Assembly: GCA_027604505.1 (NCBI GenBank)
Contig: JADIIX010000013.1
Location: forward strand, 186,001-250,000
DNA: 64,000 nucleotides
Source of the DNA: Gonapodya sp. JEL0774
Lineage: Eukaryota > Monoblepharomycota > Monoblepharidomycetes > Monoblepharidales > Gonapodyaceae
Reading direction: 5' to 3'
Part shown: positions 10,955 to 60,653 of the stretch, one piece after another
Layout of the letters: each line of letters begins with the position of its first letter
Numbering within the stretch: position 1 is the stretch's first letter
Translations under genes and position numbers: made by a program
The notes under the pieces: model-generated
The model's input: the letters and a program-made list of their open reading frames with translations, nothing else
What the model was told of the DNA's origin: nothing
Database searches by the model: none

Positions 10955-12274
10955 TCACCTCCTGATTAGGCCGGAGCCACAGGCCAATCGCACATCGTTC
11001 ACCCACGAAGCAAAAGCTTTCGCAACTTCGTCACCGTCTAACCCACGTCCATCATCATCCGATCGGAGTATTACGCGATGTGCCCCACATGCATGACAGA
11101 AGGCAGACCAAGAATCGATCATTGTGTCTGTCGGTGACTTTGACGTAACGATAGTAGATGAGAAATCGATCACCGCCGGTTGAGTCGGAAACGATAGAAA
11201 CAACCGAAGCTCAATAAGGCCAGGGAACGACGTCCGTATTGCAGATGCAAGCGCTGGGAGAAAGTCTGGTGGTGCTGGCTGCCCTAGGGCAACACTGGTT
11301 GGTGTAGACAGATGAAGTCGGAGTGAAAAGAGTGAGCGAATCACTGGTGGGTCAGAATGGCCGGCATAGCGGAGCACTTGGGACGACTCCAAAGATGAGA
11401 GCAAGCGTACTCCCGAGAGGGACGTATGGATTAAAGAAGCAAGCCACAGCAGAGGGTTCTCCATAACATCAAAGAGGGACGGTGCCTCCAAAAGGCTGAT
11501 ATTGGAAGGGGTTGTAAGGTAAGAAGTAACTTCTTCAAGGTCATTCTCCATAATGAGCGAGAAGTTTATAGGGTTTCGCTGCGAGAAGGAGTCCAGGTAG
11601 ACATAAGTGAAACTTCGGAGGTTGGGAAAGGGTGGGCTGACGTCTGAAGCACGCTGAGGAAAGGGCGCTTCACGGCGCGGATCTCGTATAATTTCGAGAT
11701 GCTCGATATGCGGAAAGTCAATGGATGTCATTGTAGCAACTGCGGCGGTGTTCAATACTGCACGGCTGGTGAGAGAGGCACTGTACGGAGGTTCGAGACC
11801 TGCAAGTCCCCCATTCAGGAAGCTTGCAAGATCTAATGGAGTGATGGCTTGAATTCCGTTAAGAAGGTCGACGTGGCCGATGCCGACGACCATTAGTTTT
11901 GGCCATTTGGAGTGTACCGCTTTGATGACGGAATCGGTGTCCAGAAGCATCAAAGCAGGAGTCTTAACTTCCAAAAAAAGTGAATATGATATCCAGCTAC
12001 GAGAGGCGGATGAACCCCTGTTCGAATGGGATGGTCTGAACTTTGGAAGGAAGGAGGGGTGTGTGCTTGCCAGCGTGGTTGCATGGCCCCGGTCCAAAGA
12101 TCGGAATGAGCATGCCAGATCGAGCAAAACTTGTCTCGTTTCTCTGTCAGGTTGTAGAATGGAGAGGGCGCAATCTCGAAAGCGCCGGCAGGCAACTTGA
12201 AGGGAAAGAGCAACCTCCCGCGGGGAGCAGCGCAGAAAAATATCAAAGATGAGCTCGTCAGGGAGTAAATCCAT
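10955..12274 (-). CDS. F-box protein
   Basis: Intronless 439-residue protein. The N-terminus MDLLPDELIFDIFLRC, followed by SPREVALSLQVACRRFRD, is a canonical F-box (LP.EL...IF, then L..AC+RFR), the segment that binds Skp1 in SCF ubiquitin ligases. The rest is a leucine-rich, alternating alpha/beta pattern (IEHLEIIRD, LIELRLFLSF) without a clear repeat count, resembling the degenerate LRR-like substrate domains of many fungal F-box proteins. Substrate unknown. It is one of two F-box-type genes in the window; the other is at 61.8-63.5 kb. Confidence 0.88.
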   Translation of the reverse strand: MDLLPDELIFDIFLRCSPREVALSLQVACRRFRDCALSILQPDRETRQVLLDLACSFRSLDRGHATTLASTHPSFLPKFRPSHSNRGSSASRSWISYSLFLEVKTPALMLLDTDSVIKAVHSKWPKLMVVGIGHVDLLNGIQAITPLDLASFLNGGLAGLEPPYSASLTSRAVLNTAAVATMTSIDFPHIEHLEIIRDPRREAPFPQRASDVSPPFPNLRSFTYVYLDSFSQRNPINFSLIMENDLEEVTSYLTTPSNISLLEAPSLFDVMENPLLWLASLIHTSLSGVRLLSSLESSQVLRYAGHSDPPVIRSLFSLRLHLSTPTSVALGQPAPPDFLPALASAIRTSFPGLIELRLFLSFPTQPAVIDFSSTIVTSKSPTDTMIDSWSAFCHACGAHRVILRSDDDGRGLDGDEVAKAFASWVNDVRLACGSGLIRR

Positions 12275-12510
12275 CGGACACTGGTTCGCCGCTCGTGGAT
12301 CGAGGTTCGTGACGTGCCGTAGACGGTCTGGTGCCCACAGCGAAGTTCGTCGCAGGATGGTTCAACCGAACCAACGACAGTAAACCGCTGGAGCAGACTT
12401 TTACATATTGAATTACTACATCATTAGTTGTATTACCGTATTGAAATTAGGTACGATATAGCAAAATAAACAAAGTGCTCGTTGCATATTAGTATGACGG
12501 TGCCGTGAAT

Positions 12511-19381: not shown

Positions 19382-22300
19382 TCATCGCACTTCGATGTTC
19401 AAAATCTTGACATCATCCCACGGTTTATCATTCTTGTCGGTCTTGACGTGCTCAATCTTGTGAATGACATCCATCCCCGCCGTGGCACGACCGAAAATCG
19501 TATGTTTGTTGTCGAGCCATGGCTGACGACGGGAAGGAGGATAGTTAGCAGTTGCAAGCTGAGTGTATCCTTTGTAAATTGATCAAACGCACCGTGGGAA
19601 CAACCGTTATAAAGAACTGGTGAGACAGAGATTGAAGCATAAATTGCAGGTTGGCTGACCAATGTTGACGAGGCAAGTTCGATCCTCACCTGCGATCCAT
19701 TTGTGTTTGGTCCGGCGTTGGCCATGCTCACCGTGTAGGGTCTGTCGTGCTTCACTGCTTTGTTGAACTCGTCCTCAAATTCGCCACCCCAAAGACTCTC
19801 GCCGCCTGTGCCGTCTCCGTTTGGGTCTCCTGTTTGAAGCATGAATCCCTTGATCACCCGATGGAATTTCAGATTGTCGTAATACCCTTTCCTGGCAAGA
19901 CCAGAGAAGTTCTCGACGGTCTTTGGTGCGTACTCCGGGAACAGTCGGAGGTGGATATCTCCCATGGATGTGCGCAAAATAGCGGAGGTGCCTAAGGAGG
20001 CTTTCGCCGCCTGCGACGAAAGCTGAGCAACTGTCTGTTCCTCGCGAGACGGCTTTTCGTTGAAAACGTCACGCCCAGTGGATGAGCTGCCCTCCTCGCT
20101 GTGAGAGAATGTAGGAGAGTTTATGTCGGGTACACAGAGCGGCCACGAGAGAGATCATTGTGCACGCACCCTTCAGGTTCTCGCTTGGTGAACAGGTAGA
20201 ATCTATTTCTCTTGAAGGCAGTTGCAAATACTGTAGGGTCCTGGATTTCAGACTCTTTAAATGCAGGGTTCTCCGACGTGGCCATTTCCTGGGAGAGGCA
20301 GCAAGAGAGGATGCTAATAATCTGGGCGGACTTTAACCTGAATCTGCCGGAACTAAGCAACCCACCAGAGTAACAATCCCCTTTTTCTTTGGTGCTCCTT
20401 GATACAGTGCAAGGTGCAAGAATCGTATCGTTTCACCCTTCCCAACAACACGAACCACTTTGTTTGTGCGGATATTGACGATCTTTATGCCTAAAAGTGT
20501 TGCATAAAGTATGAAGTTACCAGATTCGTCAAACACTGGCCGGTCAGGCGTGGGTTTGTAAGAGATTATTTGCGTTCGAGTTTGAATCGGTTCAATGTCG
20601 TGTCTTCGTGTCTTACCTACGTTTCCAGTGCCTCCCTGGCCAGCTCCCTTTTCAGACACTTCCTTTTCGACGGCCGTACGCCTACCAAATTCCATTTCAT
20701 CCAGTTTGTAGAACCCTGTTCCGGCGACTTGCATCTCCGTCACGGCCTCAATACTCTCATCATATTCACGAATCTTCCTAGCTGTGTAGAAATCAAAGAC
20801 ACGGACGTGGCGGTCATGGGGAGAGAGCGTGGCAAAGTGTGAGTAGCTCGGGCTGAATGTGAGGGTGGTAGGAGGGGATTTGGTCTACTCCAATGCAGTT
20901 CATGTGAATACCTGTCTCATCATTTGACAATGTGCGTAAACATACCTTTTTAAATTCGTACAAATCCGTCTCGCTCTTCAGTTCCCAAGCAACCACCCCC
21001 TTCCTGGGTGTCGGAAAATCCTCCCGCTCATCGGGCACCCAGTACTCAACCATCCCCTGTTCGTCGACACTGACAGTAACATTCGCGATTGGATTATACG
21101 ACAATATTGCAACGGGGTTGCGGTGTAAGCTAGTATTGACGAAAAGCGGTGGGTCTGTACCAGGGGGATTGCTTTCCGTGGATGACGATGCAGGAGCACG
21201 CTTGGAGCTAGCTGCTCCACGACCATCATAGAAAAAAATTGATGACGATGACCGGTCGGAACTGAGATGTTTGTGCACGCAGATAGTGAGACAGTCGTTG
21301 ATCATCGCAACTAAGTGAAAGCACCCACATTGCCAGCAGTGCCCTGGCTTCACCCTTTTTAAACATCCAGCATACAGCTCGGGGCAGGAATGAAAGCTTT
21401 AGCATATTTATCATGTCTGGACATGGACGCCGCTATCAGATACCGCATTCCTCGCAAACCCGGGCGACGTCAACTCACCGAAGTTAATGATATCAAAAAC
21501 CTTGCACGCCCCATCGGCACCTATCGTCGCTGCTAATGAGCCGTCATGACTAACGCTGATACCCACGACAGCCCCCAGATGTGCCCGGAAATGCTTCACG
21601 AATTCAACACCCTTGGCTGTTTTCTTCCAAAATTTGACATGGCCATCGATAGAAGTTGTAAGCAGAAAATCATTCCTGGTAGAAGGTGATTCAAACGAAA
21701 AGATTTAGAGGCGATGCTCTCATGAACTTTCTTCGTCTCCCAGCTGGAACAACAATAACCACAGCATTGAACAGAGTTGCATTTGATTGAAGAGAAACGG
21801 CAATTCCCACTGGTCTCCCTCTCTTCCGTTCGCTCGGCAGCTGAAGCCGCAGCCGTCGATTTCACCCCCTGACAGCCAAAATGCGTTCAAACTCACGAGG
21901 TCATAACAACATAGTTGACAACATCACGGTGCATGAGGGAGCGCTCGTACATGTCGGAATTCGGCAGTGATTCCACATACAGCTTCTCGTAACGGAGAAC
22001 TGGTGGACGTTTCATCAAGTCAGGGGTCCGGACAGTCAAGAGGAGAAGGTCAACATGGACAGACATTCGTTCATTCAATCGCAAAGGGGAAACATCAACT
22101 CACCTCCCTTCTTCTTGGTTCGACCACCTCCGCCTTCGGGATCTGGTCCGGTCAATACCGGCCCAATGTCCATATCGTCATCATCGGCTCCAGCCTCTAC
22201 CTTCCCGTTGTCACTCGTGTCCATCTTATTGTCTTTACTATCATCGTCCTGGGCCATGTGAGTTCCTCCCTGTTCGAAAGGTCCATCTGCGGTAGACTCT

Positions 22301-27060: not shown

Positions 27061-30000
27061 TCACGTTGGCCGCAACTGTCGACCTGTCACCTGGGTAATC
27101 ACCTGCTCTAACCGTTGCACTCTATCTAACAACTTTGCATTGCGCTCTTTGAGTGCCATGATGAGCATGTCTTTCTCCCTGCACTCCATACACTGGTCTA
27201 CATCTCCAAGCTGCTGGACAGTTCCGCCGGCGTACATTCGAGCCACAACAGACTTATCTAGTCGCTCAAGGGACGATTTATGACGCGCGGATGGGCGGGG
27301 GCTATGATGGTGATGATGAAGGTGGTGGGGTGGCTCTTGTGGTTGAGAAGTTCGAGGAGGGGCACCAGCTTCATCGCCAGAGGAAGCAGAGGAAACTGAG
27401 CCAGACTGCCACGACGAACCACTCTCGGAGCTGGTTCCGCTTGACCCACTGCTTTTCACCTCGTCGTGTTCCAGGATCTCCCGGATCTCGGAGGGATTGA
27501 GGATCGCCTTGTGCTCCAACAGTTTGCGGCGACCCATCAACACTTCCCCAACCTCTGACTGCAGTTGTTGAGTGAAAGCGCAGTTGGGATTGTCCCCTTC
27601 GATCTCCAAGGCTTCTCCGTTCCATTTCTTAATGATCATCTCCTTGGCAATGACGGCACCATTGGGAGTGGCTATATGGGGGACAGGATCACTGGGAGGT
27701 TTGGGTCCATACTCCAACGAGAGATTAGGATATCGTGAGGCTGTGAGAGGATCTAGTGTGTTGAGGAGAGGGTGCGCCAGAATCTCCAGGGCGGAGAGTC
27801 TTTGTGCGGGATCTGGAGCAACCATGCGCTTGAGGACCGAGTACTGAATTGGCAAAAAGGAATATTCACGCCTCTTTGAGTTGATGTACAACAGGATTTT
27901 GCGCGAGACATTCGTGTTCTTACCTCCTTGGGCCATCTTCGCTTAAATCCTTCGGGTACAACACCTTTCCTCAGGTCCATGAGTGTCATGACTCGCTCCA
28001 TTGCAGAAGAGAATGGCCAATAGAGTTCAAAAAACAACACACCAAGCGAATAAATATCCGTTTTCGAGTCGTAACGACGTCGCGACAGTTGCTCGGGGGA
28101 TGCATAGAGAAGGGTGCCAACTCCCAAGGTCAGGTTGACTGTTTGAGTGAGGTGACCTAGAAAATTCAAATTAGAACTAACATGAACTCGACCAAACATG
28201 CGTAATGATGAGAAATGACGCACCATCCTCAGCAAGTTTCTTGATCAGGGTTTCGTCAATCTTCCCACCATTCTTCTGGACCTGCTCGACGAGCATATCC
28301 TTCTCCGCTTCATCTATCTCTTTGTTCTGAAGCATCTCATCCCAAAGATCTCTTACGAGCTCGGTTTCGGTTTCCGGCATATGTCGTTGTTTTTGGCTGA
28401 TATCTTTGGCAAGCCCGAAGTCCCCTAACAGGACATGATCATCCTCTTGCAAAAATACTATGTAATCGACAGAATAGGAAAGTTGGGCGACACTAAACTG
28501 CAAAATCAGGTCGAATGAATTCAGAGATGTCTCACCGTTGCCAGGCTTGATATCGCGATGGATGAACCCGGAAGAGTGTACATGCGCCAACTGATACACC
28601 AAAAAGAAAAATCGACACTAATTTAAAGACAAACGAGACGCCCACAACATACCCCTTGCACGATCTGCCTGAAGATGCGTTCATTCCGTCTCTTCTCAAT
28701 TATAACCCTCGGCCGTTGAGCGTTTCTCGCCTGGAGCCACTTGTGCAGGTTTGTCGAGGAGCACAATTGCATCTGGATAAATAACACAGTGGATCCTTCC
28801 CGTTGCTCTGTTTGCGCGGTTTCCCGAGCTCCATGAGGCAAGTCTTCAGGAGCTGTTGGCCGCGCACGTTGCGAAGAAGATGATGGGATTGGTACAGGAG
28901 ACGGCTGCTGAGTTGGTGGAGGGACAAAAACTGGCATCGGCGGAGCTACAAAAGCTTGCTGGCCTGGGGCGAAGAAAGGCTGCTGGATCGCTGCACCCGG
29001 CGGGGGAACGAATTGCGGCAGTGGGATGGGACCAACAGGTGGGAGACCACCCGCTGCAGTGGACGCTGGTGTTGTGACTCGTAGTGGAACTGGAGTTGGT
29101 GGTGTGGAGGGAGGGGGACGAGGCATCCCCGCCAGAGGCGACGAGGCAGCCGGAATCGTCGAGACGAGAGTTGCAGACTTGGTTCTTTGTCTGGATGGTG
29201 GCTCCAGTGCCTTTTTCGCAGCTTTCGTATCTCGAAATGGCTCCCCAGTTGCAAGTCGAGGGGGCACGGAGGTCAGCACGGGCATAGGGTGCACCGGCGG
29301 GGGTCCCACAGGCGCGCGATCCACCGGCACAGGTGCTGGCGCTGGAACTGGCCTGACAACTAGCGGTGGTGCTATCGAACTAACCACTTGAGAGATCGCC
29401 TTGGGACCGCTGGAAGACAATACCCCACTTGGTCCACGTGGTCGTTTCGGCACAGGTGGTGGAGCCTTCTGTCCCACCTTCGCACCGACAACACCTTCAC
29501 CGCGTCCTTTTAGCGGCGGTCCTGAGCTCGGACTGATACTCCCAGCTACTCCTACTGCGGCGCTGCTTGCCGACGAGTCCGACTCTACGCCCGCATCCTC
29601 AGTATCTCCATCAGTTCCTTTCGTGGTCGCCACGGCCACGTTGAGCGAAGGGTGGTGGAATTTGCTGGGTTGATGCGTCTGTGACTGTCCTTGTTCTGTC
29701 AAGGGTGAGTCCTGGTGCCGGAAACCTTCCGCGCTGTCGTCCAACGCCCGCTCGAAGACGGAGTTTGCTGTGAGAACAATCTTCATGCTAGGCGTAGCCT
29801 CAGTTGCGGTCGAGGGGATTGCCAAGGGGAACGACTCGCCACCGGGCCTTGACGGTGCCATTCCCATCGTTGCCTGCACTCCACCCCCAGCACGCACTGT
29901 CCCCGTCGCGCCTGCGATGAGTTCAATGTTATGTATTGCCGGCAACATCCCCGATGTCGAAGACCCCGAGGACCTCACGAACACCGACTCTGACCCCGTA

Positions 30001-33000
30001 CTCCCGGTGGGAGCTTCCACCGAGGACCCCGTGCCCGCCGAGTCCTGCCTCACGTGCGATCCACCCAGCAGCATCCCACTCGTCCCACCACCAGCCTCGC
30101 CAGACGACCCCGACGCATCCGCTCCACCTTGATGAATGTTGGGCCCGCTCCCACTGGACCCCGAGGTCGGCCCGGACGACATGGCACGACCACCACCATC
30201 ACCACGCTTGCCCAGGGCCCCTTCATCAGACTCTTCGGTGTCCGTTGTGTCAGTATCACTGTCATTCCCAGTCCCAAGCGCCTGCAATCCGGCACCGGCA
30301 CCGGCCAGCCCCACCGCCGCATCGTCGGTCGCTGTTCCACGACGGGGCACTCCGCCGCGCGCGCCGGCACGGAGCTTGCCCTTGCTTGCCCTCCCCCGTT
30401 CACCACCAGTGCTCGACTTCACGCCCGTGCCCGTCCCACCCCTCACCGTCACCGTCGTCGCCGTTCCAGTACCCGCAGTACCAGCAGTCCCCTCCCCTTC
30501 CTCTTCCTCCTCCTCTACCACCCTGCTCTCCCTCTTCCCGGCCCCGCTCTTCCCCCTCGCTCCCTCCTTCCCCCCGGCGGGCCCACCCACCCCCTGCGCC
30601 TGTCCTTGCCCTGCACCCCCCTTGGGCTCTATCCCGGTTCCCGCGCCCTCCCCCTCGAACACGGCCTCGACCCAACTGTTGAAATATCTCACCACGTTGG
30701 GGTGGTTCGATATCCTCGCGAACGTCTTCACCTCCCTGATGATCCTCGCGTCGTCAGGACCCAAGTGCGTCCCGGTGTTGGTGTTGGTGCCCCCATGCAG
30801 TGGGTGGCCCCCCGTCCCGGTCCCCATCCCCGTTCCCGTCACGGGCCCGGTATGCCCCGACCCCTGTCCCCCGCCCCCCCTCCCAGCCGACGCTGTCCTC
30901 GTTCTCACCCCCCTCCCAGTCCCAGCCCGCCCGTCCCCGCCAACCACCACCGACCCTGTCCCTGTGGTCCCTGTGGTATCCCCCGCCCCGCCCATGGACA
31001 CGGACCCGTCCGACCGTATGTCGGACGGCGAGGCCTCGGAGGGGCTTTGTGGGTGTCCTCCTCCTCCGGGGGGATGTACGACGTTGTGGGACTGAGAGTG
31101 GTTACGGGAGGTGGGTGGGGTGGTGGGGGCGTGGATGGACTAGGTGGGGGTTGGTGGGGGGGGTGTGGTTTGGTCAGTCACGCACATGCATTTCCCAGCC
31201 TGTACGTCCCGTCCCGTCCCCAACCCCACCCCGCCCAACCCAACCCACACCCCACACCCCACGCAACGTACGCTCATATAATCCTGCGGATGGCACTGCA
31301 ACCTGACCTTCTTCACGGCGTACTCTTGTCCGTCGAGTCGGTTGCGCGCCCTGAACACAGCGCCGAAACCGCCTTTGCCGAGAAAGGCGAGTTCTACGGG
31401 GGGAGGGGGCGCAGGTCGTGATCCGGGTCGCTCTGCCGCTCAGGGGCCCGCCCATCCCATCCCAATTTACCCCCCTCCTCTCCCTCCCCCCCCCCCCCTC
31501 CCCCAACCCACCTTCAAACTCCCCCAAATACCGACTGGCCCCTCCCCACTCCACAGCCCCCCTGCCTCCCGCCTCCTTATCCCTAATCGTGGCCACAAAG
31601 ATCCGTCCCATATCTGGCCCGGTGGTGGTGGACATCGTGGTGTGCGTGCTGGACGTGGTGGTGCTGGAGAGGGTGGGCAGGTGGGGTAATGGTGTGGCCG
31701 TGGTGGCGGGGGTGGCGGGGGGGGTGGACGGGGGCAAGGGGGAAGGGGAGGTGGCGGGGACAGGGTCACGGGGGAACTCGCCGAGGGGGACAAAGATGGC
31801 ACGGTTGGTAGGGCCGTTGCGGGGTTTTGCGGAGTTTGCGTGGTTGCCGAGGTTCACCACCCCAGTCCACACCTCACACCTCGAGTGACACGTCCCACGT
31901 CCTACGTCAACACCGCTGTGCCTGCGTCCCGCGTGCTGCGCAATACGCGCCATCGAGCCAGGTTCACAGTCCCGAGTGCCCGCATCCCGAGCGCCGGGTG
32001 ACGGGTCACGGCCCGCCGTCCGTGAATTCAACTTGTTCCGTCCACACCCTGCTCACCCCGCTCCCCATGTGCCATCAACGCAGCGTGCCACTGTCCCTCG
32101 TCCCACGATTTTTCTTTCTTTTTCCTCGTGCCGCGGGTTTCGCTCGCTCGCAACCACATCTCGACTCTGACTCGACACAACCACCATGGCCCCCGACCGC
32201 GGCCACATTCATGGTTCATGATCCACCACACCGGCCACCGCCCACCGCAGACCGCACATCGACCACCACCACACCCAGACTCGAAAAGCCCGCACCGCCA
32301 TTCCATCGTACCATTGCTACCGACCCGCCCCACCGTCCGCGCGCGCCGTACCGTACCGAGACCACCGCGTCCGCCTGCCGCCCTCCCAACCGCCGCCCTC
32401 CCACTTTTCACTTTTCACTTCCAACCTCCCACTCCCCCCGACCATACCACCCCCTCCCCCACCGCCCCAGTCTTACCCACCCTCGGCCTCCCCCCCTCCT
32501 TGAGATAACTCCTCATGTACCTGTCGTGGTTGCGGGCAAAGACCGAGGGCATGAGGATGCGGACCTGGGAGGGAGGGGGGTGGTGGGTGGTGGGATGAGT
32601 GGGAGTCGGTTGGTTGGCCTCGTACACATAGGAAAGGGCTGACAGTCGTTTCAAGGCAATCGCCTCCCGCGGACTGTGCCCGCCGCTGACGCTTGCGAGT
32701 CGCTCCGCTCGGGATCAATCGCCACCGGCGGGACTGTGCCCCGTCGCTAGCGCTCGGCCCACTCAACGCACATTCTGGAGTCCGACGACCTCGTGTTTTG
32801 CCCAACCAAACATTCTCGATGCGGCGGAGTTGAACTCGATGATCGTGCCGTCGCCGTTTGCGACGATGACAGCGTCTATGATTGAGTCCATGAAGGAGAG
32901 GACAGGGAGGTTTGCGCCTGAGGAGGAGGAGGCAGAGCGGGATACGGCGGAAGGGAGGGGTTGGAGGGGTGGGTGTGGTGGGTGTGGTGATTGGGATGGG

Positions 33001-33323
33001 TGGGGTGGGTGGGGTGGATGGGATGGGTGTGGTGGATGGGATGGGTGGGATGGGTGTGGGGATGGGGGCCATGGCGGGTGTGCGGGAGAGGGAGAGGGAG
33101 AGGGAGAGTGAGAGGGAGAGGGGTTGAGTTGGTGGTGTTGATGGGTGTTGGATGGGAGACTTGGGACTGGAATGAATCCACTCTGCACGTTGCTGCTGCT
33201 GTGTGCTGTCTGTGCTGAGAGTGCTGTGTGTGCTGTCTGCATTCCCCCTGTGTCCCCACCCCCACTCTCTCTCCCCTCCACTCCCATCGCATCCCCCAAT
33301 TTCTCCTTCTCCCAATCCCCCAT
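27061..33323 (-). CDS. PAS-domain eIF2-alpha kinase (HRI-like)
   Basis: Predicted stress kinase phosphorylating eIF2-alpha. ATG 33323 opens a Pro/His/Ser repeat region, then a PAS domain: MDSIIDAVIVANGDGTIIEF, SAASRMFGWAKHEVVGLQN (32772-32890), an intron at 32565-32771, VRILMPSVFARNHDRYMRSY (32477-32564), and later strands (AIFVPLGEF near 31785; GRIFVATIRDKEAG near 31610). The last strand runs in one frame into the kinase start SRYLGEFEELAFLGKGGFGA, very like HRI. Kinase motifs: AVKK (31310), the eIF2AK-type VVRYFNSWVEAV (30680), LFIQMQLC (28790), HRDIKPGN (28550), GDFGLAKD (28420) and GTLLYASPEQL with SLGVLFFELYWPF (28010-28110). A low-complexity insert of about 620 residues lies between beta4 and beta5. 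The C-terminal coiled coil (CREKDMLIMALKERNAKLLD) resembles HRI. No RWD or HisRS-like region was seen, so it is not GCN2. Confidence 0.85.
32477..32900 (-). other. PAS core (two exons) of the eIF2-alpha kinase, FixL-like
   Basis: Exon A (to 32772) holds the A-beta to E-alpha part; exon B (32564-32477) holds the F-helix segment LMPSVFARNHDRYMRSYL. The GT at 32771 and the CAG before 32564 give a clean phase-0 join, LQN-VRILMP. The LMP...HD.Y...YL pattern is that of FixL and related PAS sensors, in which this His is the haem iron ligand. The Arg that follows six residues later in FixL is Ser here. Confidence 0.8.
32657..32757. repeat. Two imperfect copies of a ~40-bp GC-rich unit
   Basis: CAATCGCC...GGACTGTGCCC...CGCTGACGCTTGCG at 32657-32696 recurs with changes at 32716-32757. 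Both copies lie inside the PAS intron. Confidence 0.5.
32975..33125. repeat. Simple repeats (GGATGGGTG-type, then GGGAGA)
   Basis: On the plus strand GGTGGGTG/GGATGGGTG units (about 32975-33060) are followed by GGGAGA units (33085-33125). On the minus strand they encode the Pro/His/Ser-rich leader of the PAS kinase. Confidence 0.75.
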
Positions 33324-36147: not shown

Positions 36148-36973
36148 TCACAGCCTCGCCTCACTCCAGAGTTCGGCGGCAGGCCTAAGCACCACCGCGT
36201 GCGCGTCGTGGTCGAGGTCTGTGTGGTGCTCGTTGTGCCGGTGGTGACAGATGCTTCGCGTGGTCGTGGACGGCGGCGCTAACTCCGGGTTGTCGGCCAA
36301 GATACGGGTTTGCATTTCATGAAAATCTGCGGATGACCAGGTGTTACTTTGGGGTGGAAAGAAACGGGGTTGAGTTTTGTTTTCGGGAGTCGAGGAGTGC
36401 CGGAGAAACCACCACCAGATGAGTCACCCACCACACCAGCGCGGTTAAATCCGCCACTGTCATGTCCACGTGAGGTTCTGAGCACCTTGTTTCCTCTTCC
36501 CCGTGTTTCTGCGCGGCCTCATTCTCTCCTCCCGATGCGACCGTGGTATTGGTAAGATTTTCATGCACCACCCAGAGGGCGGTGAGTCCGACCTGCTGGT
36601 AATCCCTCAAAGGAACGAAGCGCCGAGTAGTGTAGCTTCCGTTTTGTGTATGGTAGTAAGGTAGTTGTGTATGTATGTGGGCAAAGGGGAGAAAGAGCAG
36701 GGTACTGTTCAAACAGTGTTCCCAGGCAGCCGCCGGATCCCAGAAAGGGTAGCTACGTTGGACCCACTGGCGGACCAACCTCGGCGGGATGGAAACACTC
36801 TCGCATTCCACGCACCTATCGACGATCCTCGTGGCTTCCCTCATGGTGTCCTTGCTTGTTCTGAGTTCCCGCGCAACTTGGGCGAGCCATCCCAGGAGAA
36901 CCGTGCGGTGTTCCGGCGTTATCTCTGGCACGCGGGATGTGCTCAGCTGTGGTGTGCTTTCTGTGATCGACAT
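36148..36973 (-). CDS. Short cyclin-fold protein
   Basis: Start ATG 36973. Exon 1 reads HRTVLLGWLAQVARELRTSK, then TMREATRIVDRCVE...SIPPR, the first helices of a cyclin box. An intron (GTTGGT...TTTGAG) joins it to DYQQVGLTALWVVHENLTN, matching the cyclin consensus (L)Q.VG.TAL.+A.K. After VDMTVADLTALVWW a second intron leads to FHEMQTRILADNPELAPPST, matching the ME..IL..L.+.L..PT helix. The stop is at 36148-36150. The predicted product is about 200 residues, with one cyclin fold and no C-terminal cyclin domain. Nothing indicates which Cdk it binds. It sits alone in a repeat-rich, gene-poor segment. It could be a truncated or fast-evolving cyclin, or the model may lack exons. Confidence 0.65.
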
Positions 36974-38739
36974 GCGTCGCGGTGTGCGGGGTTGATGTAA
37001 TATATGGAATGCGAAGGGAAAGGTCCAGTCACGTCGGTGAATAATACATACGCTGAGATCGGTCCTGTTTGCACCTTATCAATTAATGTATAAAATATAC
37101 GCAATCCGTATCAAGAAACAAATAGAGCTATTACCGCTGCAGTTTCAATCGGATTATCGGACTCCGCCAATTCTTTTTTTGACCTCGGGTCGTCAGAAGC
37201 CGGCGGACGGACACTGATACAGATGTCCGCGTCTAAGTGAGCACAGTATAACTGAACAACCTGTATAAATGAATACGATGCGCCAATCCCGACAGGGTTA
37301 ATTAGAAATTATTCAAAATTCTACAATAATGAATAATGAATACAGAATCTGAGCTGACGGGTATATGGTATCCCGTGATACGGAGAGCACCGGAACGTCC
37401 TTTTTTACGTTTTACAAGACATACATCGTGATCGCTGAACTAAATAATAGGCAAGGACGGGTTCTTTGTCATCCAATCGAACAAGTGCTGCATGATTGAG
37501 GGTGGATTGGATGGTTGGTAGAAAGGTTCACTGCACTAGTAACCAAGTCAAAATCAATGAAATTATGTATTCTCATACCACTTACTCCAATCCTTGGGTA
37601 CTTTTTGTCGTCTGAGTTGGTCTGAATAAAGGTCGCGACTCCATTACCACAACGCGCAGTTGACAGGTCCGTTCGCTTTACCATGGCCTCGCGGCAACCG
37701 AGAGGACAAGCACACAGCATTAGGTGCAATTACGTGGACTCAAATTGAGCTGCAAGCTCTAAAACAGAAGAAATTAGTTCAAAGTCATACAAGGCTTCAT
37801 GGCCTCGCGAGATGGTTATGGAGAATTACATAACTGCGAGAATGAATATCCTGTAGACTGATAATACAAGATCCCTGTCCCGACGGTATTCACTTAGAGA
37901 GGGACATCTGTAGAGTTATGAAAAATGAACGGGGCCTTGCTGGTAGTCTAGAAGCGGCTTTGAGATGAGACCGGTCATGATTCGGAACAGTTATACAAAA
38001 TACCGACTTCATAGAGGGCATCCCCAAATACACTAACAACTGAAAGCTTCCTCATCGCTCGCTCATAAACGAGACCACAATGAGGAAGGACTCTCTGGAG
38101 TGTAGGAGGGGAAATTATACGATGACTGCGCATTAGTGTCATCCCCTGCCGGTGCTACTAGGGCATATAGGCTAACGCTAGCCACCGCTGCTCAGGCATT
38201 TCTTCTAAAGATTATTGCATCAGATGATTTCGGCGGGAGCGTTTATTGTCTGTCTCGACGTGGTTTGTTTGCTTCGGACAGAAGTGCAACCCGAAAAACT
38301 CAAAACGAAAAAAATACTGAAGGATCGAGAACGCGAAAGTGGGGAATCTTCCAAGCCGCCAAAACTTGGTCACGGAACCGGGAGTTGAAACGAACGGAGA
38401 AGAGCGCACAAATCTGGTAAGTGGACCCTCTCTTGCGGAAACGGGGACGACATACTGGCGTTCCGAAGCGGCGGGGACGCCAGGAGAACCAAGAACGTTG
38501 GAGTCATGGACAGTACCCGTTCTCGTATGTCTTACCCGGTCTGTAGCCTTTCTCAGATCAAATCTCGGAATCTGCGGAGCTTTGGCGTTGAACGAATCGA
38601 ACAAAACCACCCCAGTCTGAGTCAAACGCTTGTTCCCTGACACCACCACGTTGCGTTCCTGCGTTCCTGCGCTCCCACATTTTGTGATTTGTGTGCGTAC
38701 AAGAGATTTTCCGAATAAGGTCACTTGTGCCTCGCAAGG
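36974..38739. other. 1.8 kb AT-rich intergenic region, no gene found
   Basis: Short frames only, without motif support. It includes the upstream regions of two divergent genes, the cyclin-fold gene (minus) and the PAM2-array gene (plus). Confidence 0.5.
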
Positions 38740-48327: not shown

Positions 48328-50006
48328 TCAACCTTTCTCTCCTGACTCGGTTCCCGCGGCCATGATCGCTAATATTTCTGATTCCATTTGCCGCGATGCA
48401 GCAGCCTGAGGTCTCGCTTTGAGCTTCTTCTTACGGTCTGCCGTTCGCGCGTCAATCAGTAGTCTCCACAATTCTATATAGAACGCCTTGGCACGTTTCT
48501 CCGTTATTCCTTTACAGCGAAGACACCGCTCTAGGAATTCACCCTCCGGAATTCGGAGAATTTGCCGCCCGGATTCGGTTGGACATAGAATTTCCGGATC
48601 CACAGGACTTATTGCTACCCATTTACGGAGATACGCGTTGTCCCAAGTGGCTGGGTTTTTTGCATTGAACTCCATGTGGAACCTTGCTTTTGGGATCGGG
48701 ACACGGAGAGGTTCGATATACCGGAGCGTGTTAAGTGTTGCGGAAGTATCGAACACGCTAGGGGGTGGAACACATTAGCGAAATTCACTGCGGAAAGTAC
48801 GATTTAATCAACTCTCACCTTGGTGAAACACACGCAAACACAACCGTTCCACAGCGCCTCCGTGATTCCAGTTCAAATACGTCCTTCAGAAGGAGAGTGA
48901 GACGATTCAGGCGATAGGGTATATGAACGTGCTTGTCTGGAGAGAGGGCAGCCATTGCACGGTTCCGGATACAGTCCTTGAGCGCCGACAGGCTCTTGTT
49001 AATCTCCTTCGTTTCTGCAAGGCGCTCCTTAGTGTGCTCGGCTACATCTGCAGAGTACTCAGATCCCGCCAGGTCTACCAGATACAGCAATCCGTCCTCC
49101 GATTCGGGAACACGCTGATTAACAATCCTCAGACGGTGAACCGCGTGCGATCTGGATGACGTGTCATTCTTGAGAGTGCTTTCAGTCCTGCGAAGGAGTG
49201 ACGCTTGCTCCACGAACTGCTGAAGCTCACTCGCATTGGTGACTTCCGTTTCTTTCGTTCCGACAACTTGAACCGATCCGAACTTGTCCTCTGCAATTTG
49301 AACTGATTGGCGCTCGGCCAATAAATCATACGTGTTGGGTCCAAAAATTTCAAAAGCGCTGTAATGAATAGAAAAATCGGCATTATCTGGGATTGGCGTC
49401 GACGGATCTTGACGGCGACGGTAGCTACGAGCGACCTCGAAAACGTCCCGGGCAACGTTTTGGGACATGGCTAAGAAGCCCAAATGGTTGCATGGAAGAA
49501 ATCAATCGTAAGAACGTACAACTGCCCTCACCAGCCATGGTGTAAGTCTTGCCGCTACCTGTCTGCCCATATGCAAGAACCGTTCCAACACCCCCACCCA
49601 GAGCGAGCTCAACGATACCGCTTAGCGCGTTTTGATAGACTTCCTCATTGGTTCTCTCGGGCTCAAACGCCAGATCAACTTCAAAGCTGCTTGTCCGGAT
49701 TGCCCCAGGCCCACGATGGCTGCTCGCCACTGGTACGTGGACGTGCACCTGTGGATGTCGTACGTCCACAACCTGGAAGCAGCCACGGGCAAGCTCGTTG
49801 GGTAGAAGGGGTCTGACACGTACACAAACGACTGTGTCAGTTTCCGTGGTACTGTCCTGACCCACGAGACCTGTGCCCTCATTCAAAGCTGATGGCAGAG
49901 GTTTGGCAGGCGAAAGAGAAAAGGAAGAGCGAGAAATGGAGTTGAGGATGAACTCGCGGTTTTCCAGGACGGATATTTGGATTGGGGAATTCTGGACAGT
50001 CTGCAT
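48328..50006 (-). CDS. Divergent kinesin motor protein (kinesin-13/KIF24-like)
   Basis: Short N-terminal leader, then the motor: VVCVRVRPLLPNE, FEPERTNEEVYQNALSGIVE, the P-loop AYGQTGSGKTYTMAGE (about 49540-49570), ARDVFEVARSYRRRQ, AFEIFGPNTYDLLAERQSVQ, VVGTKETEVTNASELQQF, switch I DTSSRSHAV, switch II LVDLAGSE, EINKSLSALKDCIRN, and TLNTLRYIEPLRVP at the motor end. The ARDVF, VVG..E.EV and SLSALKDCIR details fit the kinesin-13 group, but the segment normally reading SKLTQVLRDS is NRLTLLLKDVF. After the motor about 110 residues form a compact helical region (WDNAYLRKWV, FLERCLRCKGITEKRAKAFY) resembling a SAM-like fold. The stop is at 48328. Total about 550 residues, short for a kinesin; no long coiled coil. 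ATG 50006 chosen. Confidence 0.85.
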
Positions 50007-50897: not shown

Positions 50898-53800
50898 ATG
50901 GGTGGAGACAACCAAGCAGAGACAGAGCGAACACACGCCCTTGAAGAATCCATTCCCATGACGGGAACGGGGAAAGGGGATACGCCTTCCAACACCATTC
51001 ATCCCGAAGGAAACGGTGATTCAAGTGGCAAAGATGGCGGGGAATCTTCTGAAAAGGCGATATCAAAAAAGACGAAATTCACGGGAGAAGTGGAGGAAAA
51101 GCCCAAACGCGTCACAATCATACAATTGTTAGTTCGCTCCGCGGTTTGCCTCACCCTTTTCGCGACTTACCAAATTTCGTTATTTGCTCAAGATTTCGAT
51201 TCTCTACAACTGTCGAACGCCTCCTCATGGGTATTGCCTGCATTGCTGCCATGGTGTCAGGTGTTGCTCTTCCACTCCTGAACGTCTTTCTCGGAGGTGG
51301 GTTATTTACTCCTCAGACCATTGTTTCGACAATGATAAATCTGTTCTCTGAATAGATATTATCACGACCATAACCACCTACAATCCCCTCTGCGACTCAA
51401 GTGATCCAAAGATTCGCGCTGACACTCGTGCTGCATTCGGTGGAATTGAATGCGGTATTGACAAGTTCAATCAAGATATCCGCAGTGGATGCATCATTTT
51501 TGCCATATTAGGATGTGTTCAATTCGCCTGTGTTTATCTACACGTGAGCATAAGTGTCAGACCGCCGTACTGGATCCGCGCTGATTTCTCTTTCGTCCAA
51601 ATGGAAATGGAATTTTGATTTCCTCAGAATGTTATCTTTTCCTACACTGCTGAAACTCAAGCTAGAAGAATCCGGGAAGCTTTCTTCCACTCTCTCCTAT
51701 CTCAAGACCAGGGCTGGTTTGATGTGGGTGTTCGTTACTCGATCTTTTGCCAGCTGCGCTACCACACATGACACCTTTCTATTCATTGAGTAGAGCCAAC
51801 TCACGGGAGGCCTTGTAACACGAATTACTGCTGATATTGCGCAGGTCCAAGAAGGGCTCGGTCCAAAGGTGGGGGCGCCTTGTTTATGGATCCTCACTTT
51901 CATACAAACTGAGGTCTCCTTTTGCAGATGTCACAAATTGTGCAGTTCACGACTTCTTTCTTCACCGGTATCATTCTTGGTTTCACCAAAGGATGGCAGA
52001 TGTGAGCACCACACCATCTCGCCCTTTTGCTCACATCTTTAATCTCAATTTCCGAATTGCAAGGACTCTTGTGATTTTTGCGGGAGTTCCCGTCATCGCC
52101 ATTGCTGGCGGGACACTGGGAATTCTTTTGCAATCTGTTGCCACTCAAAACGCCTCGGCCTATGCCGGTGCTGGAGCAGTTGCATCCCAAGCCTTTACCG
52201 CGATTCGTACCGTCGTGGCTTTCGGAGGGGAAGCGAAAGAGGAACGAAAATATGAGAAGCGTTTGGATGAGGCTTATGCGATAGGACGTCGAGCAGCTAT
52301 TATTCAGGGAACCGGCATTGGTGTTGGTGAGTGCGCCTGCTGTTTCATTGTACGAGGCATTCGAAGCTTATATCGAGCAACTTCACCTACTTAAAAACCT
52401 TGATCTGTCATTGAAATCCAGTGAACATGTTGATATACTTCGGTATGTTCTGGTTTGCCCGTTCTGGATCTCGTTCTGGACTCGAATATTTACCCCATTT
52501 CTTCAGTGTTTGCTTTCGGCTTTTGGTACGGCTCCACACTCGTTGCAAGTGGGCAATATAATGGAGGTCAGGTTCTGAGTAAGTACGATCTTCAATCACT
52601 TGCGTCCCTGGCGTGGCTTTTAACTGTGATTGTACAACCTCCGCAGCTGTGTTTTTATCGGTTCTTGTGGGCGCTTTCTCTCTCGCGACAGTTGGTCCCA
52701 ACATTCCTTTCATCTTCACAGCGCAGGGTGCTGCGTTTCAGTTGTACGCCATAATTGACCGCAAATCGCCAATTGACCCTCTGTCGCAGGCCGGCGAGCG
52801 TCCACCAACTGTTCAAGGCCGCATCGAACTACGTAATGTTACTTTCCGCTATCCATCACGCACCGATGTCACGGTCCTTGACGACTTCTCCCTTGTTGTG
52901 GAGCCCGGTCAAACAGTTGCCCTGGTTGGTGGCTCCGGAAGTGGCAAGTCCACGATCGTGAAATTGGTCGAGCGTTTCTATGATGCCGAGAAAGGGCAAG
53001 TGTTGCTTGATGGACGAGACGTGAAAGCCTTGAACGTCGACTTTTTGCGCACAACCGTGGGGATTGTATCTCAGGAACCTGTTTTGTTCGACACGTCAGT
53101 GCGGGAAAACATCTTATACGGATTGAGCCTTGAAGCTCGCAGGAACTTGTCGAAAGAAAAGTTGGACGAGATGGTTATCTCAGCGGCAAAGATGGCGAAT
53201 GCGCACGAATTTGTTTCAAATTTACCCAAGGCCTACGACACTGTCGTTGGTGCACAAGGAGGGCAAATTTCCGGTGAGTAAATGTGACTCAAATCTTACA
53301 TCTGCTGGTTGAGTATCCCTTCGTTCTTTGCTTATCGATACTTTTCTCGTGGGCATAACCGTGATTCTTCTGGATCAGGTGGTCAGAAGCAGAGAGTAGC
53401 AATCGGTGAGTCTCCTGTTCAATTATTTTCTATATTCGTATAACAATTGTCGTCGTGTCGTTCCAGCGCGTGCTATTATTGGAAATCCCGTGAGAATATG
53501 TTTTTATACGTCTTCTGTTTGTGTGCAGTGATGAACTCAACGGTCACGTCAGCGAATACTCCTCCTGGATGAAGCGACCAGTGCCCTTGACACTACAAGG
53601 TAATTGCTGCTGGTCGGTACCTTGAAGCAAAGGGTTAATGCAGCTATTGCAGTGAACGACTTGTACAAGCTGCATTGGATAAAGCAGCAATGGGAAGAAC
53701 GACAATTGTTGTTGCCCAGTACGTGAAATGGTTTGAGCTGGACACTTTAGTCTCCACTTCTCACGAAATGCGCCCTCAGTCGTCTATCCACCATCAAAAA

Positions 53801-57458: not shown

Positions 57459-60400
57459 TCACCGGCAATCATATCCAGAGCTCCGGTCTCCTCCACACTC
57501 ACGGTACAACCTCATGGTCTCTCCCAAATTTGAACACGCTCCAAAACGCTTTTCGTCCACACCCCACGGACTGATTGACGTGATCGACCACCGAGGCTTC
57601 CGTGAAGAATTCTTGTCTGGCCACTCAGAGTGAGCGCGTCCCGCGACCTCACTCCAGACACTAATCTCTCGATTCTCCCCTGTTCTGATCCACCGAACGT
57701 CACCTGGATTCTTCTGGGGCTGCCGTGATGCGCTTGGAACCAACAAAGACCGAAATCTAGGATCTCGGGACTCCTGCACCTTGGTTCTGTCAACGAACTG
57801 ACGGCCTGCGCCGGGCTCAGTCTGCCAAAAAACGTCTCCTTTGAGAACAATGTCTTCGACATACCGTCTGTCTTCGACAAACTGTCTGTCTACGACAAAC
57901 GGTCTCTCTCTTTGCAAGCCGATCACAGGTGAAATTTCATCCACATCGTCCCATCTTTTCTTTGGTAACACGAATTGTCCGGGCTTTCGAATGATTTGAC
58001 CAACACAGAGAAACTCCGCCGATCTACTCACTCGACGAAAGCCGTTAATAGACGAAGCCCGCAAGTTGCCTGCGGACTCAAGACGTTCAGCTCCAACCTC
58101 ATTGGAAACTATTTTCACAAGGTCGCCAACACATATTATGTCCACTCCGAATCTCAGTGCAAGAATGGAGCTTTTGTTACTGGAGTCAACCTTTAGAGAT
58201 AATGTTCCAGACACACCCATCAACTGTGCTGCTCCACGGTTCCAGAGGGTACATCGTCCAACATTTCCACTTCGCCACAGTTCAATAGGCACAATATGTT
58301 CGGCTGAGACTATTTCAGTTTGACCTGGAGCATCAACGTCGAGGGATGAGACTGGTAGCCGCCGCACCTCGTATGCGAGAGGCCGGTCTCGATTTGCGCC
58401 TTCATGGACTCCCCACCTCTCCAGAATGTAACGAGCAGATCGCGCCGACGGCACAGCAGCGGTCGGCCTGCGAAATGTTCCCATCGTCTCCAGGTCCGGT
58501 CGACCGACTTCGTTGAGAGATGACACAAGCACCAGAGCGTGTTCTTCAGAGTCCGTATTACTAACGGCGTCCGCTGAACGACCAGGTAAGCATGAATCAC
58601 CTGATTCCCTTGAGTTGAGCGCTACGTCACTGATGCCTTCACTAAGCGTAGGAGTAAATAGATCTCGGTATCGAGGAGCGTCCAGAGGATTAAGTGTGGG
58701 AGACGCAGCCATCGTTGAGTCGCGAGGGCGGGTATCAGGGGATAGATATGAGACACCATCGGCCTCTGAGTGACCACGAGCAGGTTTAAGCGCTGGAGAT
58801 AGAACCTGCCGGTTCCCGATATCATCCACAGGTGAGTATTGGGGCCTTGAGATGAAGTTCCTCGCCTCGCTTGCAGATGTCACCAGTGGCAAATAGCTCG
58901 TTACAACTCCAAGATCCATAGCAAAATCTTCTTTGAGATCGAGTTCAGGTTGTTGCGGAAAAAAATTTGAAGCTGCGTGCTGCAGAGGAAACAGGTCATC
59001 CCTCGAGGAAGGTAGAATCACCTCGACTTTTAGTTGCGACTTCAGCAATTGTGAAGAGGGCGAGCAGCCCCTCTCATCGTCTATACTACTGAGATCTTCG
59101 CCAACGTCGTACAGTCGGTCCTCAGACATTGTGTTACCCGCAAAAGCAAAAGAGGAGTTCTGACGATTGGAGAGAGGGGGGCACGGTGCAACAGCGACCG
59201 GGTTGGGTGGAGGAGACGTGGATATGTTTAAATGCGGTTCCAAATCATGTTCCATTATCCAGTGTTGGGAACCATCCTTAATGGTGTGCGGCTTTCGTGT
59301 GTTTTGTTTCACGTTATCATCGGGTAGTGGCCGAACGACCAAGACAGGCCTGGGAGTCGGAAGAAAACGGGCGTTTCCATTCATCACCAAATGTTTGGGA
59401 TCATTTCGGAGACCTCAGACGGAAACCCACCACATCACCTCTCTCACATCCTGATCATTCTCTTTTTCTTCCTTGTTCTCCAACACCACAGCCCAAGCAA
59501 TATCCCCTGATCTATATCCTAAGTGCCATTCCCACTTGATCGGTTCTCCCGCGTTTGGAGCAACGACTTCGACTAAGGTGGCACCGCGCTTGTGGGAACG
59601 CTTATGGGACAGACTTGAAGGGGGAAGAACAGACGAGGAAGCAGGCCAAGAGGAGACTCTAATGCCGGAATAGGAAGACCCGGGAGGGTTTAGTCGGCGA
59701 CGCTTTGAAAAGTTCCCGTTGTCTGCAGAGTCCGATTCGTCTTCCCCAGAAAAGGATGAACGATTAAGCCTACTAGTTCGACGATCAGAAGATTGCGCTG
59801 GAGAAGGAGATGAGTTTGGAGGTTTGGAAAGTGAGCTGTGAACTTTCATGCTCCTCCTTGGAGGCAGGGCGCCTGGGGCTCTATTTGACGGATTGCGAGC
59901 ACCCCGCGGAACCCCACCACAGTACTGACACAAGCACGCTGGCACAACTACATTAGGTGGCAAAACTGCCAGAGCTGGCTGACCCGTGCGCAGAGAGGGA
60001 GAACCAAAAGTAAGGTTATCGAGAACCACGTCCAATGGTCGCGTCAGGCTGGGAGTGGCCCCATTCTCCTTCGTGCTCTTCCGAATGGCTTCATCAACAC
60101 TCTTTAACCACTTGAGGTGTGGCGCGAACTCGTTCGGACTACGAAACCTTCGCCTCCCCGCCATCCCAAACAAGTAGAAATCCGTCCTCCTCCTCTCATT
60201 CCGCGCTCGAGAATGTCCAAACAGCGCATATCCACGTGGCCAAGCTGTGAGTCCACAAAGAGGAAGCCAGTGCGACTCAGAACGGGAGCCTTGGGCGAGG
60301 AAAAAGCCGGAGGATTGTTCGGTGGACGGATGGTTAATGGGGTCACCGTCTGAGAAGAGAGGAGGGGAGACCGCTGAAGAATTCGTGAGCGGAGGTGGGA

Positions 60401-60653
60401 CGAAAGTGGGGGACGGAGCGGCAGTTTGAGAAGTTGACCGGTTACGCATGCTGTACGTGTTGCTGATTGGGGAAGATGACTGTGATCGAGAGGGGGAACG
60501 ACTCACTGCACTGAGAGCGTCAGGCGGGCTGTGCAAAAAGATAAACCAATTCACGTAATATTGTAATGGTGTGGTTCACCGCAGCACTTCTCACCATGCA
60601 GCTTCGACGTCTCTGGATCCCCCTTCATCCTCCTCGCTCACTCGTTTGTGCAT
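57459..60653 (-). CDS. Clr2-like transcriptional silencing protein
   Basis: Chromatin silencing factor related to Clr2, the S. pombe SHREC subunit. Exon 1 MHKRVSEEDEGGSRDVEAA (ATG 60653) splices into a Ser-rich segment, then the N-terminal domain: WPRGYALFGHSRARNERRRT, DFYLFGMAGRRRFRSPNEF, PHLKWLKS and the zinc-type CLCQYCGG (59930-60260). A basic linker with KRRRLNPPG (possible NLS) precedes GYRSGDIAWAVVLENKEEKE. An intron (GTGGGT...CTCCCAG, about 59360-59440) then gives REVMW-PVLVVRPL, matching the RxGE/D-hydrophobic-W...WP..V pattern of the Clr2 transil domain. The long C-terminal exon (57459-59340) has conserved-looking HIVPIELWRSGNVGRCTLWN and FGVDIICVGDLVKIV. Length near 1,000 residues, longer than S. 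pombe Clr2. Confidence 0.75.

Follow-up and report, generated by a model that had tools for sequence, protein, structure and literature searches.

The closest described systems are two 'PERK-like' eIF2-alpha kinases of the Neocallimastigomycetes, from Neocallimastix californiae and Piromyces finnis, for which an N-terminal PAS domain and a C-terminal membrane helix were reported and redox or oxidative-stress sensing was suggested (available text of PMC10512342, 2021). In FixL, the signal is described as leaving the haem domain via the beta-sheet and reaching the kinase by way of a coiled-coil linker, and roles have been assigned to the residues of the haem pocket (available text of PMC10765370). 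Within the FixL/DosP cluster the F-alpha His is described as the primary determinant of haem binding, as present in >9700 (60%) of the members and as the only invariable residue; the PAS of PASK clusters nearest to this haem cluster, yet human PASK-A is without a ligand (available text of PMC10468136). Here, a 64-kb stretch of Gonapodya sp. JEL0774, a member of the Monoblepharomycota within the chytridiomyceta (contig JADIIX010000013.1, positions 186,001 to 250,000; the window), was analysed, in which an eIF2-alpha-type kinase gene with a PAS domain is located on the minus strand at 33323-27061. It shares with the gut-fungus kinases the N-terminal PAS, the kinase clade and a C-terminal CxxCxxKD motif, whereas the gut-fungus type, unlike the window gene and seven relatives in which the ligand His is kept, is without the haem ligand (0/7 covered rows, among which only P0005, from P. 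finnis, is named). The PAS sequence and the proximal His are common to the gene and FixL/DosP, as are the predicted fold and the distal Arg in its relatives, but the output is a eukaryotic eIF2-alpha-type Ser/Thr kinase and not a histidine kinase or phosphodiesterase. HRI (EIF2AK1) is similar in its kinase motifs and in haem as the putative signal, but has the PF22949 N-terminal domain and belongs to a different kinase clade in both trees described below. PASK is likewise a eukaryotic Ser/Thr kinase with a PAS, of which human PASK-A differs from the window PAS in being without a haem ligand (PMC10468136).

The favoured reading, to which a probability of roughly 0.6 is given, is that the gene encodes a haem- or oxygen-gated eIF2-alpha kinase with an N-terminal PAS sensor of the FixL/DosP type, and that it is a member of a separate eIF2-kinase lineage, found in chytrid-related fungi and others, which goes back to a single PAS capture. 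Nine exons were rebuilt from the sequence, and all introns of this model are of the GT-AG type (Table 1). For detection of the PAS domain a profile was made without the window from seven fusion proteins and four bacterial FixL-type rows and run against the 1931 six-frame pieces of the window. Just two matches below E 1 were obtained, at 33323-32766 (E 1.4e-13, profile positions 3-42 of 113) and at 32714-32418 (E 8.8e-7, positions 41-73), and they are consecutive in both the profile and the genome. A chance match was ruled out by shuffling, as the peptide of exons 1 and 2 reached 87.9 bits against the profile versus 8.5 bits for the best of 1000 shuffles. The first part of the PAS was also matched by Pfam PF00989 (5.5e-9, profile positions 6-44 of 113; composite with the linker cut). 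Intron 1 (32771-32565) lies between GLQN and VRILMP of the conserved GLQNVRILMP and was placed so in 4/4 spliced alignments. The last PAS strand GRIFVATIRDKEAG and SRYLGEFE share one open frame, and the splice 31512/31393 leads into ELAFLGKGGFGAVF of the kinase; the preliminary description had placed a PAS core and a kinase on one strand here, with the final PAS strand in the frame of SRYLGEFE, and was right in both respects.

When a 130-amino-acid composite of the PAS (linker cut) was compared with all PDB sequences, 16 matches at E <=0.1 were found, of which the top seven were FixL (1d06, E 5.1e-16) and the next six DosP/EcDOS. The predicted fold of the PAS of a relative is FixL/DosP-like as well, the Foldseek ranking having been given a second look by VIA-align. 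Since the PAS is FixL/DosP-like, oxygen or haem is plausible as the signal. Light, which had been named earlier beside redox, oxygen and haem, is unlikely because the LOV cysteine motif is missing from the GLQNVRILMP stretch; the best match is FixL and not a LOV protein.

The composite protein search gave 1254 matches, of which the best 120 were examined; according to the Pfam column of the database, at least 10 relatives among these 120 combine PF00989 with a kinase domain. Two further searches (best 120 each) added P0121, P0122, P0239 and P0242 among the matches listed. Three groups were distinguished: (i) a FixL-type group with the window, P0001, P0002, P0003, P0033, P0121, P0017 and P0239; (ii) a gut-fungus type with P0004-P0008, P0011, P0013, P0014 and P0016, in which P0005 is from P. 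finnis and P0016 from N. californiae and the others were placed by similarity; and (iii) proteins whose PAS N-termini look worn by eye, namely P0018, P0019 (Rhizophlyctis rosea), P0020, P0079 (Amoeboaphelidium), P0094 (Boothiomyces) and P0242 (Borealophlyctis), of which P0019 alone reached the PAS profile (17.5 bits). The same architecture was thus found in relatives, as had been thought worth surveying: PAS and kinase are present in one continuous protein in P0001, P0017 (579 amino acids on an 1850-base contig) and P0239, which carries a Trinity transcript name, and a single transcript for both parts is demonstrated only in such relatives.

When 32 PAS rows were aligned, His was present at the FixL His200 column in 8/8 members of the FixL-type group, including the window, and Gly in 7/7 covering rows of the gut-fungus type (P0013 and P0016 do not reach the column); the gut-fungus rows have no His anywhere in the local stretch around it. 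At the FixL Arg220 column, Arg is found in 7/8 FixL-type members, or 7/7 when the window is excluded, and FixL columns 215, 236 and 238 are hydrophobic in 8/8. The PAS of P. finnis, the one gut-fungus type tested, looks like a former haem PAS, because it matched only FixL in PDB (7/7 matches, E 9e-7). When the state of the His was mapped on the kinase tree for 16 rows, P0242 being assigned by eye, two changes were counted, which would most simply be read as an ancestral His followed by two losses, an order favoured because FixL itself has the His. In a PAS tree of only 110 columns, in which long branches were flagged, the window's among them, 15 fusion PAS stood on one side of a branch (Shimodaira-Hasegawa-like approximate likelihood-ratio test 99, quick tree) against 165 other PAS, mostly bacterial where named; a single capture of a FixL-type PAS is thereby favoured, not proved.

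The assignment of the kinase to the eIF2AK family, already made from its motifs, was borne out. Pfam Pkinase matched the composite from which the inserts had been cut out at 2.9e-49, and the top 20 PDB matches were 18 named eIF2 kinases and two entries with a general Ser/Thr-kinase name (1zxe, 9bf3); the best E values were 8e-61 for PERK, 9e-61 for HRI, 4e-50 for GCN2 and 1e-39 for PKR, followed by Myt1 at 4e-24. The hallmarks of the family are present, namely a large N-lobe insert (~625 amino acids), HRD, DFG and GTxxYASPEQ. An identity as PASK, the kinase of which is not of the eIF2AK family, was ruled out, as the kinase matches eIF2 kinases best. A first tree was made of 44 kinase domains, comprising eIF2AK members and four bacterial kinases; the window kinase did not fall outside the family but grouped with 39 eIF2AK rows against the bacterial kinases (100/100). 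The 19 PAS-type rows formed one clade (98/91), in which the window kinase pairs with P0121 (100/99), beside separate clades of PERK (100/99; three rows, insect), GCN2 (100/100; five), animal HRI (100/99; five) and fungal HRI (97/93; five). After removal of four long-branch rows, a second tree gave 96/94 for the PAS clade, 69/86 for HRI and 99/98 for PERK. The window kinase lies outside the GCN2 clade in the first tree and outside the PERK clade in both; in the own genome, RWD matches were found on C54, C231 and C47, a HisRS-like match on C56 and a kinase exon on C30, the RWD and HisRS-like matches thus being on contigs other than the window's. The C-terminal CxxCxxKD motif occurs in 18/25 proteins of the PAS clade versus 0/7 HRI, PERK and GCN2 proteins.

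Some results weigh against the reading as a haem sensor of a separate kinase lineage, and they are given here together with the alternatives on which they bear. The approximately unbiased (AU) test does not reject a clade of the PAS-type kinases with all HRI (p 0.11; without P0048, p 0.106), so that an HRI whose N-terminal domain was swapped for a PAS has some claim, although we consider it unlikely. HRI and PERK are near-tied as best PDB matches, and HRI does not come out as a single clade in the first tree, where the HRI-type rows P0048 and P0054 fall outside its animal and fungal clades, and is weak in the second. Both trees, on the other hand, set the PAS-type rows on a branch of their own outside HRI, and PF22949, the HRI N-terminal family, was noted for most EIF2AK1-named matches and for no PAS-type match among the best 120 of 1254. 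A search of the own genome with PF22949 found no match, but its control also matched nowhere, and for PF12745 the control was likewise without a match. The preliminary view that the kinase is closest to HRI needs correction in that both trees place it in a clade with other PAS-type kinases and not inside HRI, although a union with HRI is not rejected.

The PAS may also be fused and expressed but haem-free, serving as a dimerisation module or for another ligand as in human PASK, which we judge improbable. Besides the PASK precedent (PMC10468136), such a PAS would agree with the absence of the His from the gut-fungus type and from the worn-PAS rows (0/5 covered; P0242, judged by eye, is also without it) while the kinase was kept. 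The named hosts of the worn-PAS group are not anaerobes, so that anaerobic life by itself does not account for the loss of the His; few named hosts underlie the contrast of an oxygen user that keeps the His with a gut fungus that loses it. At the FixL Arg220 column the window aligns Ala, in an uncertain exon. Against a haem-free PAS stand the His of every FixL-type member, also of P0017 and P0239, the two that branch deepest in the kinase tree, and the distal Arg in 7/8.

Equally improbable in our view is that the PAS of JEL0774 is a relic, with its first half unspliced or the domain unfolded and the working protein close to P0122. This deposited protein ('Eukaryotic translation initiation factor 2-alpha kinase [Gonapodya sp. 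JEL0774]') corresponds letter for letter to 31953-31512, 31393-31308 and exons 5-9; it begins inside the PAS, without exons 1 and 2, and its model closes exon 4 at 31308 and so omits VRLQCHPQDYMS, the counterpart of which is IRLQCHPQDYI in P0003. The opening PAS exons and a conserved segment of the kinase thus seem to be missing from the deposited model. Its start at 31953 would suit a relic, as would a dispersed repeat in intron 1, the length of intron 2 (575-608 bases, depending on the splice option) and the unrecognisable second half of the PAS. The PAS core had been placed at 32477-32900, which holds for its first two thirds (profile positions 3-73 of 113), whereas for positions 74-113 (the part with RKDGxxFP) no match was obtained in any frame of the window, and for this half frameshift-tolerant spliced alignments to four relatives ended in four discordant, poor solutions. 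Similarity to the relatives is confined to FVPLGEFP and the last strand; in the best fit by eye, exon 3, RNGPTNRAIFVPLGEFP replaces RKDGSTFPVDVSLGQFP of P0033 and is followed by a long insert and then GRIFVATIRD. For these reasons the second half in JEL0774 is taken to be very diverged, interrupted or wrongly assembled, and the claim of a haem sensor must be tempered for the window copy itself. An inserted repeat was rejected as the explanation for the lost middle, the 597-bp segment 31880-32476 having matched only itself in the own genome (simple repeats skipped). Against a relic speak exons 1 and 2, which are free of stops and frameshifts in the spliced alignments and have acceptable splice sites, the retained last strand and the 12 PAS columns invariant in a six-row alignment, all kept in the window, two of them in the uncertain exon 3. 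The PAS core is complete in relatives such as P0121, and the PAS of the relatives is short.

A PERK-like endoplasmic-reticulum-stress kinase, as the gut-fungus relatives were named in PMC10512342 and as the narrow lead of PERK among the PDB matches might suggest, is highly improbable, since PERK is a separate clade (three insect rows) and according to the available text of that paper neither lumenal similarity nor a signal peptide was found and the role is left open.

Table 1. Exons of the PAS-kinase gene, selected elements within it and neighbouring genes (window positions).
Feature	Positions	Strand	Content and basis
Exon 1	32772..33323	-	P/S/H-rich N-terminus, then first third of PAS core (SFMDSIIDAVIVANGDGTIIEFNSAASRMFGWAKHEVVGLQN, from ~32891); PAS profile match E 1.4e-13, PF00989 match 2.1e-7 (own-genome search); GT donor 32771; start codon proposed at 33323, M at PAS edge also possible
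Exon 2	32477..32564 (end 32481 or 32477)	-	F-alpha part of PAS (VRILMPSVFARNHDRYMRSYLKEGGRPRV); PAS profile match E 8.8e-7, spliced alignment to 4 relatives
Codon of His aligned with the FixL proximal haem ligand (His200, B. japonicum FixL)	32526..32528	-	Alignments; codon counted from sequence
Exon 3	31512..31901 (acceptor 31901 or 31872, uncertain)	-	Second PAS half (hard to recognise), then linker and final PAS strand GRIFVATIRDKEAG, SRYLGEFE; open frame and splice options; within P0122, whose exon begins 31953
Exon 4	31272..31393	-	Kinase glycine loop and catalytic Lys (ELAFLGKGGFGAVF...YAVKKVRLQCHPQDYMS)
Exon 5	28653..31139	-	Insert, REVKTFARISNHPNVVRYFNSWVEA, very long G/P-rich insert, STVLFIQMQLC...IFRQIVQG; same exon in P0122
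Exon 6	28536..28590	-	Catalytic loop HRDIKPGN; also in P0122
Exon 7	28224..28457	-	VFLQEDDHVLLGDFGLAKD and onward; also in P0122
Exon 8	27924..28156	-	Activation segment GVGTLLYASPEQL ... DIYSLGVLFFELYWPF; also in P0122
Exon 9	27061..27843	-	Kinase end and C-terminal tail, stop 27063-27061; also in P0122
CxxCxxKD motif, then coil-like stretch CMECREKDMLIMALKERNAKLLDRVQRLEQVITQ	27064..27192	-	C-terminal; common to PAS-type kinases; coil judged by eye
F-box gene	10958-12361	-	Below cut-off
Cyclophilin exon	19402-20154	-	Ordinary neighbour
Cyclin	36347-37075	-	Ordinary neighbour
Kinesin motor	48818-49501	-	Ordinary neighbour
ABC transporter	52583-53278	+	Ordinary neighbour
Clr2-like gene	59418-60575	-	Ordinary neighbour

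Further features of the locus were recorded. Intron 1 (32566-32771) holds a short unit with 18 further genomic matches at 74-95% identity, some of them tandem (e.g. C1:122075-122312, C78, C223). The low-complexity insert in the kinase N-lobe (~625 amino acids, 30668-28794) is longer than in the relatives compared by eye, and the local GC content is 0.68 at 30-32 kb and 0.60 at 32-34 kb, across the PAS and the G/P-rich insert, versus ~0.46-0.55 in the rest of the window. The CxxCxxKD motif beside the coil-like tail is a possible metal or redox site and is retained in the gut-fungus type as well. The models of P0009 (Cladochytrium) and P0012 (Polychytrium) begin within the apparent last PAS strand (MATIRE..., MFVATLRDI...) and are possibly truncated too. 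L022 and L023, further PAS genes in this genome, were inspected by eye.

Under the favoured reading, the PAS dimer would bind haem via the F-alpha His, and oxygen, or the haem or redox state, would alter the beta-sheet of the PAS and the short linker that leads to SRYLGEFE. Movement of this linker, which by analogy may be the same as in FixL, would set dimerisation and autophosphorylation of the kinase by favouring or blocking dimers, and the kinase would phosphorylate eIF2-alpha and so lower translation; the haem ligand would have been lost in the gut fungi and in the second group with a worn PAS. That the signal controls translation directly, as the preliminary description had proposed, is likewise something that we infer. 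Haem is likely made by the host, because a ferrochelatase was found in its genome. The search of this genome with PF07541 did not find eIF2-alpha, which is taken as a limit of the search because eIF2-alpha is an essential protein. More tentatively, and at less than even odds, an old eukaryotic eIF2-alpha kinase lineage may have taken up a bacterial FixL haem-PAS and, as an invention separate from HRI, may set translation by reading oxygen or haem directly; the gut fungi and, independently, a second, chytrid-aphelid group may have abandoned the haem site while retaining the kinase for other signals.

The combination of a PAS with an eIF2 kinase, of which the preliminary description knew no well-described member without excluding one, is already known, the kinases of N. 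californiae and P. finnis having been published; PMC10512342 was the only such source found, and in the available text of PMC10468136 eIF2 is mentioned once, in a reference title. No report of a FixL-type PAS or a haem ligand on an eIF2 kinase was found in the literature searched, subscription journals being largely outside reach. New are the recognition of the PAS as FixL-type, a haem ligand conserved beyond the gut fungi and lost from two groups, and a kinase clade of its own. Eukaryotes as a rule sense oxygen slowly, by way of hydroxylases and transcription. If the favoured reading is true, a haem-PAS attached directly to an eIF2-alpha kinase would connect oxygen to translation within a single protein and would add a further sensor type to the integrated stress response, and the unexplained PAS-kinases of the anaerobic gut fungi would have an origin as relics of an oxygen sensor.

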